DNA of 64,000 bases from Kribbella pratensis. Lineage in GTDB: Bacteria; Actinomycetota; Actinomycetes; Propionibacteriales; Kribbellaceae. The stretch spans positions 3,284,481 through 3,348,480 of the forward strand of contig NZ_SODP01000001.1 in NCBI RefSeq assembly GCF_004365355.1, written 5' to 3'. The notes beneath the pieces were generated by a model. The model did no database searches. It saw nothing but the letters and a program-made list of their open reading frames with translations, and had not been told where the DNA came from. The position numbers were made by a program, and so were the translations under genes. Shown piece by piece: positions 25,069-31,300 of this stretch (position 1 is its first letter; every line of letters starts with the position of its first letter).

Positions 25069-25170
25069 TTCGTCCCAGTGCGGTCACGATCGCGCGCCCC
25101 TTGGATTCCGCTTGCCGCCGACGGGAAGACTCACCAGCAAGTGCCGGCTGGGTATGTCTGGGGTCCACCG

Positions 25171-25656
25171 ATGATCGACACGAGTTTCCGCAATTGGCTA
25201 CCGACGTGGTGCGGCGGCCGTCGTACGCCGGAGTCCTTCCGGCGGACGAATTCCCGCGTCAGTCGTCTCGCCGTCCAGTACGACGCCGAGGTCGACGCGG
25301 CGCTGCAACGCCTGTGGCCGAAGGCGCGGATCTATCACGATCGCGAATTCACCCGGGACCGCGCTGACTTCCTGCTCGTCGTGCGCGGCCGCGGCGTGAT
25401 GATCGAGACCAAGGTGAAGAGCGACCCCGGACTGTTCCATGGGTCCACGCTCCCGCCGCTGCTCGATCGCCTGCAACGCGATGGCCGGCGTCTCGTCGTA
25501 CTGCTCAATCAGGGTGACCCGACACCGGCTCGCGACCTGGTCACCACCAAGCTCGGCGACAAGGGCCGCATCGTCGTCTGGTCCGGACCGCACCACGACA
25601 CCGAACTCCGCGAGGCCGTCGAATCGCTCCTGCACCAGACGAGTCGCCACCCCTGA
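25171..25656 (+). CDS. NERD/restriction-endonuclease-like fold protein
   Basis: A 161-aa soluble protein. The core reads DRADFLLVVRGRGVMIETKV, which fits the PD-(D/E)XK pattern of NERD-type nucleases: Asp, then a hydrophobic strand, then E-x-K. A downstream segment RRLVVLLNQGDPTPARDLVT may be the next strand and helix. No helicase or methylase lies nearby. The start at Met 25171 is uncertain; the frame is open to 25078. Nuclease activity is a fold-based guess. It is followed directly by the A-B-B-A repeat block. Confidence 0.6.
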   Translation: MIDTSFRNWLPTWCGGRRTPESFRRTNSRVSRLAVQYDAEVDAALQRLWPKARIYHDREFTRDRADFLLVVRGRGVMIETKVKSDPGLFHGSTLPPLLDRLQRDGRRLVVLLNQGDPTPARDLVTTKLGDKGRIVVWSGPHHDTELREAVESLLHQTSRHP

Positions 25657-25683
25657 ACGCGAGCCCCCACGCCCTTCGTCCCT

Positions 25684-25941
25684 CTCAGGGGTCAACCCCC
25701 GAGATGGTCGGTGGGCACCTCGGAATCCGGGTCCGCAACCGACCATCTGAGGGGTCAACCCCCGAGACGGCCGGCTGGCGCCCCGGATCCGGGTCCGACC
25801 GTCTGAGGGTCAACCCCCGAGAGAGGCCAGCTGGCGCCCCGGATCCGGGTCCGACCGTCTGAGGGGTCAACCCCTGAGACGGCCGGTTGGCACCTCGGAA
25901 TCCGGGTCCGCAACCGACCATCTGAGGGGTTGACCCCTGAG
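25684..25941. repeat. A-B-B-A palindromic repeat block
   Basis: The 309-bp gap between two convergent genes holds five copies of CTGAGGGGTCAACCCC-like palindromes, starting near 25684, 25747, 25803, 25859 and 25922. The four segments between them are a long type (about 63 bp, first and last) and a short type (56 bp, middle two). Each intervening segment also folds on itself, for example GATGGTCGGT with ACCGACCATC. The whole block is close to mirror-symmetric, with CCCTTCGTCC at one edge and its complement at the other. It may act as a bidirectional terminator or be a mobile palindromic element. The long open frames reading through it are repeat artefacts. Confidence 0.8.
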
Positions 25942-25965
25942 ACGGACGAAGGGTCGGCGGTCGGG

Positions 25966-26517
25966 TCAGGCGTTCTTGATGGCCGAGACCTCGAGCTCCA
26001 GCGTGACCTTGTCGCTGACCAGCACGCCGCCACCCTCGAGCGCCGCGTTCCAGCTGACGCCGAAGTCCTTGCGGTTGATCACGACCGAGCCTTCGAGGCC
26101 GACGCGCTGGTTGCCGAACGGGTCGGTCGCCGCACCGGTGTACTCGAACGTCACGTCGACCGGCTTGGTGACGCCACGGATCGTCAGGTCGCCCGACACC
26201 ACGAACTCGCCGTCGCCGCTCGGCTTGACCGCGGTCGACACGAAGGTGATCTCCGGGTGCTCGTCCATCGCGAGGAAGTCGTTGCTGCGCAGGTGCTCGT
26301 CGCGCTGCCCGTTGCGGGTGTTGATGCTCTTGGCCTGGATCGTCACCGTGCCGGACGAGTTCGCCGGGTTCTCGCCGTCGATGTGGAACGAGCCCTCGAA
26401 CTCGTCGAACGCACCGCGAACCTTGGTCACCATCGCGTGCCGGGCGCTGAACCCGATCCGGGTGTGCGCCGCGTCGAGGGTGTAATCGCCGGTCAGTGCG
26501 GCGTACTCGTTGGACAT
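25966..26517 (-). CDS. YceI family protein
   Basis: A 183-aa YceI/lipocalin-like beta-barrel protein, a fold that in characterised members binds polyisoprenoids. The start is GDYTLDAAHTRIGFSARHAM, the middle holds SINTRNGQRDEHLRSNDFLA (the family's N..R..H......F signature), and the end is DKVTLELEVSAIKNA. No signal peptide is present, so it is probably cytoplasmic. ATG 26517 has GGAGGA upstream; the open frame extends to 26595 without a better start. An AGTTGAACT palindrome at about 26537 in the divergent promoter region could be an operator. Confidence 0.9.
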   Translation of the reverse strand: MSNEYAALTGDYTLDAAHTRIGFSARHAMVTKVRGAFDEFEGSFHIDGENPANSSGTVTIQAKSINTRNGQRDEHLRSNDFLAMDEHPEITFVSTAVKPSGDGEFVVSGDLTIRGVTKPVDVTFEYTGAATDPFGNQRVGLEGSVVINRKDFGVSWNAALEGGGVLVSDKVTLELEVSAIKNA

Positions 26518-26665
26518 CGCGGATTCCTCCAGAGGACTAGTTGAACTTTTCACAGTACAGATTTCACCTTTGACGCTCAGAAGTCCACCCCCCACCCGGC
26601 GTGTTCACCTCGTGGACCTGTCGGGGTCGGAGAATGGACGCGATCGACGGGAGAGCGGGGGTTCG

Positions 26666-27949: not shown

Positions 27950-28779
27950 CCCCCACCACCAACGACCCAGCCGACCGCGGAGTGCTCGCCGGCTCGTTGG
28001 TCGGACGTCCGTCGAGTGGTCGCCGGGCGGTTGGTCGGATGGTCGCCGAGTGATTGGTCGGATGGTCGCCGGGTGATTGGTCGGCTAGTTGGTCGTGGGG
28101 CCGTCGCCGGGTAGTTGGTCGCGCGGTCGCAGGACCGTCGCCGGGTAGTTGGTCGCGCGGTCGCACGACCGTCGCCGGGTAGTTGGTCGCGCGGTCGCAC
28201 GACCGTCGCCGGGTAGTTGGTCGCGCGGTCGCGGGACCGTCGCGGGGCGGTTGATCTGGGGCGGTCGTGGAGCGGTCGCCGGGTGGGTTGCCGGGTTGAT
28301 CGGCCGGTACGCCGCGCCATCGCCCGCCGAGCTGATCGGCCGGTACACCGGGTAGATCGCCGGGCGGTTGATCTGGCGCTTATGGAGCGGTCACCGGGTA
28401 GTTCGCCGGTCGGTCGCCCGGTGACTGGGTCGGTCCGTTGGTCGGCCGGTTCCCGGGTGGCTGGTCGGCCGGTCGTGCGGTGGTTCGCCGGGTGGTCGCC
28501 GCACCGTCGTGAGGCGATCGCTGCGTGGTCGGCCGGATGGTTCGTCGGGAGGTCGCCGCACCGTCGCAGAGCCGTCGCCGGGTGGTGGTTCGCCGGGCGG
28601 TTCGGCGGATGGTTGCCGGATGGCTGGTCGGGCGGTCGCCGATGGTTCGTCGGATGGTTCGCCGGACCGTCCCCCACCGCTTGATCGAGCCGTACGCCGG
28701 GCCGTCACCCACCGCTTGATCGAGCCGAACGCCGGGCCGTCGCCCACTGGTTGGTGGGGCTGTGGTTAGGGTGCGGGGT
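27950..28779. repeat. Repeat-rich gene-free spacer
   Basis: Eight hundred bases without a credible gene, made mostly of degenerate copies of GGTCGCCGGGTGGTT-like words. It includes a precise 34-bp tandem array (see separate entry) and, near the end, a duplicated CGCTTGATCGAGCC word at about 28679 and 28713. Strand composition is skewed, with G and T concentrated on the plus strand. Several Arg/Thr/Pro-rich frames stay open across it only because of the repeat structure. No promoter or operator was recognised apart from whatever drives pyrE at its right edge. Confidence 0.75.
28101..28238. repeat. 34-bp tandem repeat array, four copies
   Basis: The word CCGTCGCCGGGTAGTTGG begins at 28101, 28135, 28169 and 28203, and a decaying fifth copy starts at 28237, giving an exact 34-bp period. 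Units differ at only one or two positions (GCAGGA, GCACGA, GCGGGA). There are no unique spacers, so it is not CRISPR. It is embedded in a larger degenerate repeat-rich spacer between a small hypothetical gene and pyrE. Confidence 0.9.
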
Positions 28780-29298: not shown

Positions 29299-29891
29299 CC
29301 CTCACCCGGCCTAGCACCCACCCAGCCGCACGCTCACCCCGCCTGATGCTCACCCGGCCACGCTCACCCCGCCTAACACTCACACCGACTTGTGCTCAAC
29401 AGGTCTGACGCCCACCCTGGCTGACGCCCACCCGCCTTGTGCTCAACACGCCTCGTGCTCACCAAGCCTCGTGCTCACTGGGTCTTGTGCTCGCCCGGCC
29501 TTGTGCTCAGCCGGCCCGACGGTCACCCCGCGTTGCCCTCACCCCGCCTGACGCTCACCCCGGCTTGCGCTGATCCCGCCTGGCCCTCACCCGGCCTGCG
29601 CTCACCCGCCTGCCCTCACCCGGCCTGATGCTCACCCGGTCGCGCTCACCAGCCTTGCACTCACCCGGCGTCGCACTCACCCCGCATGACACTCGGCCGG
29701 CCTGCGCTCACCGCGCCTGACGCACCCTGCCGGCGCCCGCCCGACACTCAGCCGGCCTGACGCCCACCCCGCCCGACACTCACCCGGTCTCACCCTCGCG
29801 CACACTCCGCGTTGCGCTCCCCCGCCTGACGCTCACCCCGTGTTGCGCTCTGCCGACTGACGCTCAGCCGGTCTTGCGCTCGGGCCTGTGC
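29299..29891. repeat. Degenerate 16-bp tandem repeat tract
   Basis: About 590 bp made almost wholly of degenerate copies of a roughly 16-bp unit of the form TGACGCTCACCCCGCC. The period stays at 16 through long runs (about 29450-29580) and slips to 14-17 elsewhere. It follows the pyrE stop and ends in the 3' end of the exonuclease gene. No gene is supported within it. All local open frames are Pro/Thr/Arg-rich repeat products. It could be a minisatellite, an RNA element or replication slippage debris. Confidence 0.85.
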
Positions 29892-31133: not shown

Positions 31134-31210
31134 CCGGGCCTCCTCCGGCTCGATGACCGACTGGAACAACCCAATCACACGCGGCCGACAGTTTCCGCCG
31201 AGCCAGACAT

Positions 31211-31300
31211 CGCCGGGTCACGCATCGCCAGATCACGCATCGCCAGATCACGCATCGCCAGATCACGCATCGCCAGATCACGCATCGCCGGGTCAGGCCT
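31211..31300. repeat. 15-bp tandem repeat array, about six copies
   Basis: CGCCAGATCACGCAT is repeated exactly at 31226, 31241, 31256 and 31271, flanked by variant copies at 31211 and 31286; the pattern then decays toward 31321. Each unit contains one GATC. It fills most of the gap upstream of the exonuclease gene on the minus strand, so it may lie in or near that gene's promoter. Confidence 0.9.

Follow-up and report, generated by a model that had tools for sequence, protein, structure and literature searches.

We identify, at 25657–25965 of the window (the whole stretch of 64,000 nucleotides of Kribbella pratensis DNA that was analysed), a block of palindromes in which four copies of a dispersed, non-coding repeat lie side by side, probably as the local amplification of a non-autonomous mobile element of the REPIN/MITE-like kind. 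The units belong to a genus-wide repeat system of this kind in Kribbella, in which shape is conserved. Mobility of the element is inferred from its dispersal and from its presence or absence at orthologous sites.

A palindrome array between two gene ends

The 309-bp gap between two stop codons is almost filled by five near-palindromes of 19–20 bp, laid out as follows:

25078–25656, + strand: upstream gene, whose stop codon borders the gap; no match in Pfam; exact start uncertain
25657–25965, no strand: tail-to-tail intergenic gap with the array, 309 bp
25684–25703, no strand: palindrome P1 (CTCAGGGGTCAACCCCCGAG)
25704–25746, no strand: spacer A1, 43 bp, an inner stem with a GAATC apex; P1-A1-P2 is a full unit of 83 bp
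25747–25766, no strand: palindrome P2
25767–25802, no strand: spacer B1 of a shortened unit, 36 bp, with its palindromes spaced at 56 bp
25803–25821, no strand: palindrome P3, one G shorter
25822–25858, no strand: spacer B2, 37 bp; shortened unit
25859–25878, no strand: palindrome P4
25879–25921, no strand: spacer A2, the middle of the second full unit, P4-A2-P5
25922–25941, no strand: palindrome P5 (CTGAGGGGTTGACCCCTGAG)
25966–26595, − strand: YceI-like gene (PF04264, E = 4.5e-53), whose stop codon borders the gap; exact start uncertain

An earlier note on this DNA had described five palindromes bounding segments of 63, 56, 56 and 63 bp, and they are found with exactly that spacing, starting at 25684, 25747, 25803, 25859 and 25922; the two inner units are shortened, with spacers of 36 and 37 bp compared with 43 bp. 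The note had also read the block as an inverted copy of itself. This holds in part, as the outer units are 78% complementary as inverted repeats (103 nt), but they match more closely as direct repeats (89% identical over 97 nt, 175 bp apart), and TRF calls a direct tandem array of period 56. A direct tandem array of four units is therefore the more accurate description. The block looks mirrored because each unit is itself a palindrome, and the inverted symmetry is largely a by-product. Self-complementarity of the block in its best register is 0.66, whereas 2,000 mononucleotide shuffles average 0.38 and reach 0.46 at most, and the array RNA (286 nt) folds at −201 kcal/mol, compared with −137 ± 5.8 kcal/mol for 200 dinucleotide-preserving shuffles.

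The window has no Rfam match at gathering score; the search against Rfam gives only weak matches to unrelated families, mostly microRNAs, that fall far under the cut-offs, and one unit compared with phage and plasmid collections had no match there. Further tandem arrays lie near the block, at 27975–28747 (periods of 23–36 bp), 29301–29881 (16–45 bp) and 31208–31295 (15–30 bp).

The repeat unit and its shape across Kribbella

The palindrome recurs throughout the genome that holds the window (8.37 Mb, 6 contigs). A neighbouring gene has its closest named relatives in Kribbella species, with K. rubisoli at 96%. One 20-bp consensus finds 72 sites at up to 3 mismatches and a more degenerate consensus finds 79 at up to 2, with 0 sites for the reversed pattern in either case, so the core is not confined to the block, as the earlier note had allowed it might be. 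The loci fetched for analysis contain all 72 and all 79 palindromes, and the sole overlap noticed between the fetched stretches holds none. A partner at 63 ± 2 bp (up to 6 mismatches) is present for 77 of the 79; those without one number 1 of 72 for the first consensus and 2 of 79 for the degenerate one. Because nearly all palindromes are paired, the doublet is the unit: a hairpin-forming repeat of ~90 bases in which two near-identical 20-bp palindromes fold into one long hairpin with an AT-containing apex. The element is short and non-coding, with inverted-repeat ends.

Aligned units of this first family number 42 at 37 loci, three of 45 starting candidates having been removed as spurious pairings within tandem arrays at L011 and L028. 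Their palindromes are spaced at 63 bp in 37 units, 62 in 4 and 61 in 1, and the core GGG/CCC columns are invariant across all 42. The consensus has CCGTCT ahead of the palindrome core, with G/A and C/T variable. GAATC or GATTC lies at the apex, within the central 13 nt, in 28 of the 42 units, in 13 of 21 family-2-like units and in 11 of 29 units from other Kribbella genomes, where ~1% would be expected by chance. No two copies from different loci are more than 91% identical (37 family-1 and 18 family-2 copies compared), and so there is no sign of recent movement. Tandem arrays with periods of ~62, 31 and 172 bp lie beside or include family-1 units at L011:3778–4028, L028:3878–4003 and L009:4004–4534, respectively; each repeats part of the element plus flank, which suggests slippage at the hairpin.

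A covariance model built from the 42 units has at least 137 matches in this genome, both strands counted (150 of 4,439 candidates scored), with a step in the score distribution between 70.5 and 62.6 bits. We examined 21 places, spread over 20 stretches: those below the step down to 44.6 bits, and one at 70.6. Most of these have a different outer palindrome (TTTGGTGGGTATACCCACCAAA type) and inner stem with the same overall length and fold, whereas L089 and L099 look different. This second family is unrelated to the first in sequence and has the same geometry: median identity is 0.58 between the families, compared with 0.73 and 0.76 within them (37 and 18 copies, leaving out L089, L099 and one L093 copy). 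The geometry extends through the genus. Representative units, one from each of 29 other Kribbella genomes, form a nested hairpin in most cases, often with other palindromes, and two other genomes have pairs of such other palindromes at 62 or 63 bp. With at most 35 candidates scored per genome, this genome has model matches at E ≤ 0.001; beyond it, the model matches 33 of the 37 other Kribbella genomes, the exceptions being G010, G004, G008 and G037, and, weakly, 1 of 79 other relatives. In a class sample of 296 genomes, where 13 candidates per genome were scored behind strict filters that lose weak matches, only this genome matched at E ≤ 1e-4 (0 of 295 others).

The doublet could also be viewed as a paired DNA-binding site, with two palindromes six helical turns apart recognised by a nucleoid or chromosome-organising protein. 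The near-constant spacing, the invariant core columns and the 62- or 63-bp pairs of other palindromes in two other genomes fit such a site. Pairing within the unit does not: in the 37 units of exact spacing, palindrome self-pairing falls slightly below independent expectation (0.792 vs 0.811 and 0.849 vs 0.873) and cross-arm pairing slightly above it (0.803 vs 0.772), which points to one long hairpin and away from a pair of independent symmetric sites. The palindrome sequence also differs between families of one genome, and the close relative G010 is without a match. We consider a paired binding site very improbable.

The long hairpin itself carries a signal of covariation. Across the 42 units, 79.1% of cells in the full hairpin are paired (76.2 ± 0.6% in shuffles), 131 cells are changed on both sides (95.7 ± 6.7), and the covariation score is 0.175 (0.136 ± 0.008); for each measure, 0 of 500 shuffles is as high, although relatedness of the copies inflates this set of measures. 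Two other measures are not unusual: double-changed pairs number 24 (22.3 in shuffles, 98 of 500 reaching that count), and there are 56 further pair types (55.6 in shuffles). Cross-arm covariation thus exceeds the shuffles modestly, the paired-cell excess being 3 percentage points. Among 16 comparisons of orthologous gaps (two of them unrelated hairpins, two pairs run both ways, whole gaps folded with their flanks), broken pairs outnumber those changed on both sides and still paired in 13, with 3 ties. Given covariation at the level of copies and broken pairs at orthologous sites, the hairpin constraint seems to act more on lineages of spreading copies than on each resting copy.

Insertion into the loop of existing hairpins was considered and rejected, as flank duplex energy is no better in true than in mismatched pairs of flanks (permutation p 0.15–0.41 for 37 loci at skips of 4–15 nt; p 0.15–0.52 for 19 family-2 loci at skips of 0–12 nt). 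Closer in, complementary runs starting 4 nt out average 3.1, compared with 1.7 in mismatched pairs, and positions 5–8 nt outside the palindromes pair at 0.62, compared with 0.47 expected. Locus-specific outer stems are rejected beyond ~8 nt; inside ~8 nt, the complementarity is that of the element or its edge.

Gene ends, skew and orthologous junctions

Gene contexts were assigned with a purpose-built, simple codon-based gene caller. The 37 family-1 loci comprise 16 convergent, 16 tandem and 4 divergent sites and 1 inside a predicted ORF, such that 32 lie behind gene ends (convergent or tandem); of the 21 family-2-like sites, 14 are tandem and 7 convergent. The stretches that hold these sites, of which L039 and L089 share ~1 kb, also contain gaps without an element: 57 convergent, 243 tandem and 72 divergent. 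Relative to these, element sites are richer in convergent gaps and poorer in divergent ones.

Approaching an element from either side, C exceeds G, and the elements sit where the C/G skew flips. Mean skew over 80 nt is +0.28 for the 37 family-1 loci (36 positive), +0.29 for the 21 family-2-like sites (19 positive) and +0.32 for 25 elements of 25 other genomes (24 positive). Of the 29 elements fetched for the last set, four were omitted, three because a contig end was near and one because another unit lay close by; three more with such a neighbouring unit were kept. The skew has faded by ~300 nt, and at the midpoints of other gaps it is +0.02 (tandem), +0.06 (divergent) and +0.09 (convergent). 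At four orthologous sets, coding-flank skew is 0.190 where the gap is 80–340 bp (n = 37) and 0.123 where it is ≤30 bp (n = 28), in a comparison that sets occupancy by gap length only, mixes loci and draws on non-independent species; at gene ends away from elements it is 0.057. Since the skew at empty orthologous junctions falls in between, it may reflect a preference for certain targets as well as change after insertion.

Position behind genes, with a C-rich lead-in, raises the alternative that the hairpins are host-encoded bidirectional transcription terminators, selected at tail-to-tail gene ends, whose sequence is shared through gene conversion or ancestry. Intrinsic bidirectional terminators are strong GC-rich hairpins between convergent genes, as the array is, and C-rich sequence running into a hairpin resembles Rho-utilisation sites. 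The distribution of sites relative to non-element gaps, and the unrelated hairpins that relatives have in the gap beside yceI, are also consistent with this view. Several features argue against it. The element is longer than an intrinsic terminator and repetitive, and it is missing at orthologous junctions of relatives; a scan for a hairpin plus U-tract, which does not cover terminators lacking a U-tract, found 0 sites (0.6 in shuffles). Four family-1 loci are divergent. At tandem sites the C-rich flank is about equal on the side transcribed into the element and on the far side (0.37 upstream and 0.28 downstream at 17 family-1 loci; 0.31 and 0.33 at 14 family-2-like sites). Selection at the RNA level on the transcribed strand is not supported either: in tandem contexts, G-U pairs do not significantly exceed A-C mismatches (49 vs 42, p = 0.53), nor do they in family 2 alone (26 vs 15, p = 0.12). 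This also weighs against the earlier suggestion of an RNA processing target, as do orthologous gene pairs without the element at another locus, L039. We regard host-encoded terminators as unlikely.

At L039, the convergent gene pair is readable in 23 of 30 genomes; the gap is 87–183 bp with a hairpin in 7, 45 bp in 1 and ≤26 bp in 15, a further point against terminators that the host needs there. In four relatives (G007, G010, G015 and G029) the stop codons are one base apart. The gap is 102 bp in this genome (G000) and 118 bp in G002, both with related units, the two gaps having an aligned identity of 0.86, and G012, G018, G020, G009 and G030 have other hairpins. At L104 and L021, by eye, gaps of 0–30 bp in some species stand against several kinds of hairpin in others. 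Presence of the element is thus polymorphic at orthologous gene junctions. G007 is usually the closest relative, its flanks being at least as similar to this genome as those of any other in 18 of 24 windows, but over the 150 bp right of the L039 gap its identity is 0.82, the lowest of five. Since the L039 unit occurs in this genome and in G002 and is missing from G007, loss, introgression or two insertions would be needed, and the pattern does not fit a single simple insertion. As separate observations, the gap orthologous to L021 holds an extra 956, 958 and 987 bp in L156, L159 and L161 (G008, G024 and G027), and that orthologous to L104 an extra 1,043 bp in L185 (G021); these stretches may be coding.

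The yceI gap holds one unit in G007 and four here, and the unit is also a dispersed repeat across the genome, both of which bear out the earlier proposal that a palindromic element was duplicated. An unrelated short hairpin is common to G010, G002 and G015, and further hairpins occur elsewhere, such that the picture of a single simple hairpin in orthologous gaps, which the earlier note had named as a finding that would refute its reading, applies only in part: G007 has one unit of the repeat, and the other relatives have simple or unrelated hairpins. Copy number, which that note proposed comparing, differs sharply between close relatives: G007 has 91 palindromes, this genome 79, G029 66, G015 55, G002 7 and G010 0, a range that is also hard to reconcile with host terminators. 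At the thresholds applied, G010 has neither a family-1 nor a family-2 palindrome, and the model does not match it, while sister species carry dozens; genome-wide loss of the repeats is possible. Overall, the interpretation in the earlier note is partly supported. In the fragmented assembly of G021, many of the palindromes listed lie within ~300 bases of a contig start (C300, C175, C182, C166, C299, C119, C200 and C331), as if hairpins or repeats break assemblies.

Possible mobilisation and relation to known systems

We propose that copies spread as hairpin units through an enzyme acting in trans that would not be a recognisable RAYT, and that surviving copies would collect in the gaps behind genes. 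Slippage or recombination at the shared palindromes could then have taken one unit, as in G007, to the four present here. Resting copies may act as bidirectional terminator-like hairpins, which gene pairs can do without.

In a search that was positive for 5 of 14 control genomes, Escherichia coli included, no RAYT-type Y1 transposase (PF01797) was found in this genome, and G031 was the only one of 38 Kribbella genomes with a member of the family. The 3,339 bases around the G031 transposase contain no unit of the model. As regards a parent insertion sequence, only 2 of the 79 palindromes in this genome are unpaired at ≤2 mismatches.

MITEs and ERIC-type palindromic repeats are small, non-coding, palindromic and dispersed in intergenic DNA, as the Kribbella element is, but for the Kribbella element no parent insertion sequence or target duplication was recognised. 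The duplication was looked for by eye at one clean empty site, the 1-bp gap at L039. The element might nonetheless be what remains of a MITE family whose parent, an ordinary DDE-type insertion sequence, has since been lost, a history that would agree with its size, inverted-repeat ends, intergenic sites, insertion polymorphism and diverged copies. With so few palindromes unpaired, this genome shows no element that has these ends further apart, and families of different sequence keep one geometry, which an ordinary MITE would not predict. Together with the lack of a recognised target duplication at that one site, this makes such an origin distinctly unlikely.

REPINs of Pseudomonas are REP doublets that form hairpins and are tied to RAYT transposases, in a system where the text available of PMC3116915 describes singlets as a notable feature. 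As far as that text goes, the Kribbella elements resemble REPINs in being inverted doublets of short palindromes at fixed spacing that form a hairpin with compensatory changes, lie extragenically and occur in tandem clusters; they differ in that no RAYT-type Y1 transposase was found in this Kribbella genome and that its singlets number only 2 of 79, that families of different sequence share one geometry within the genus, and that a skew switch surrounds the elements (PMC3116915). CGTC-tagged REPs, in the portion of PMC3733652 available, are reported to have no dedicated transposase, lie mainly between co-directional and convergent genes, and have stems of 8–9 bp with loops mostly of 4–5 nt and tails that mostly fit CCA; they come mostly from alpha-Proteobacteria, and that text does not mention Actinobacteria, Kribbella or Streptomyces. 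Judged by the same text, the Kribbella element is likewise a palindromic repeat for which no dedicated transposase was recognised, is likewise found mostly at tandem and convergent gene junctions, and has a CGTC-like string at the outer edge of its consensus, but its palindromes are ~20 bp with no loop, and the tag is variable (PMC3733652). A literature search with few subscription journals returned nothing on palindromic repeats in Kribbella or on the comparative genomics of its repetitive elements, and no REPIN/RAYT work on Actinobacteria; among the matches listed, those for REPIN with Actinobacteria looked unrelated.

These comparisons raise the possibility, which we advance tentatively, that the palindromes of Kribbella form a class of mobile element not described before, REPIN-like but without a RAYT, whose copies inherit their shape and not their sequence. 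Such elements would be doublets 62–63 bp apart that form one long hairpin with an AT-containing apex at a C/G skew flip, and their families would undergo turnover within groups of species, settling again and again at the same junctions between genes. Parallel families conserved in shape would imply an unknown mobiliser, a single-strand or structure-specific enzyme. The work on REPs and REPINs considered here deals mostly with Proteobacteria, in examples whose transposase is known; an actinobacterial genus rich in doublets of one geometry without that transposase would allow a structure-specific enzyme to be tested against hairpin replication errors, and the close pair of G007, with its 91 palindromes, and G010, with 0, offers a natural contrast for finding the mobilising factor.

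Other hairpins share the gaps of these genomes. Folding the non-element gaps revealed ordinary shorter hairpins in many, an extra family-2 copy (at L010, from among seven weaker places of the model search) and a third repeat; an ungapped palindrome scan of these gaps, with scoring too strict to be informative, had no match anywhere, coding sequence included. The third repeat is a dispersed hairpin of ~115–130 bp (GAGGAGGTGCTCGGTGCGGT...CGAGTGCCCCGCAGTAGGCG type), found in this genome and at other Kribbella loci: L092:161–343, L026:4730–4897, near 501 in L032, L047:16190, L048:8602 (the same copy as L112:2821), L051:1617 and L052:8763.
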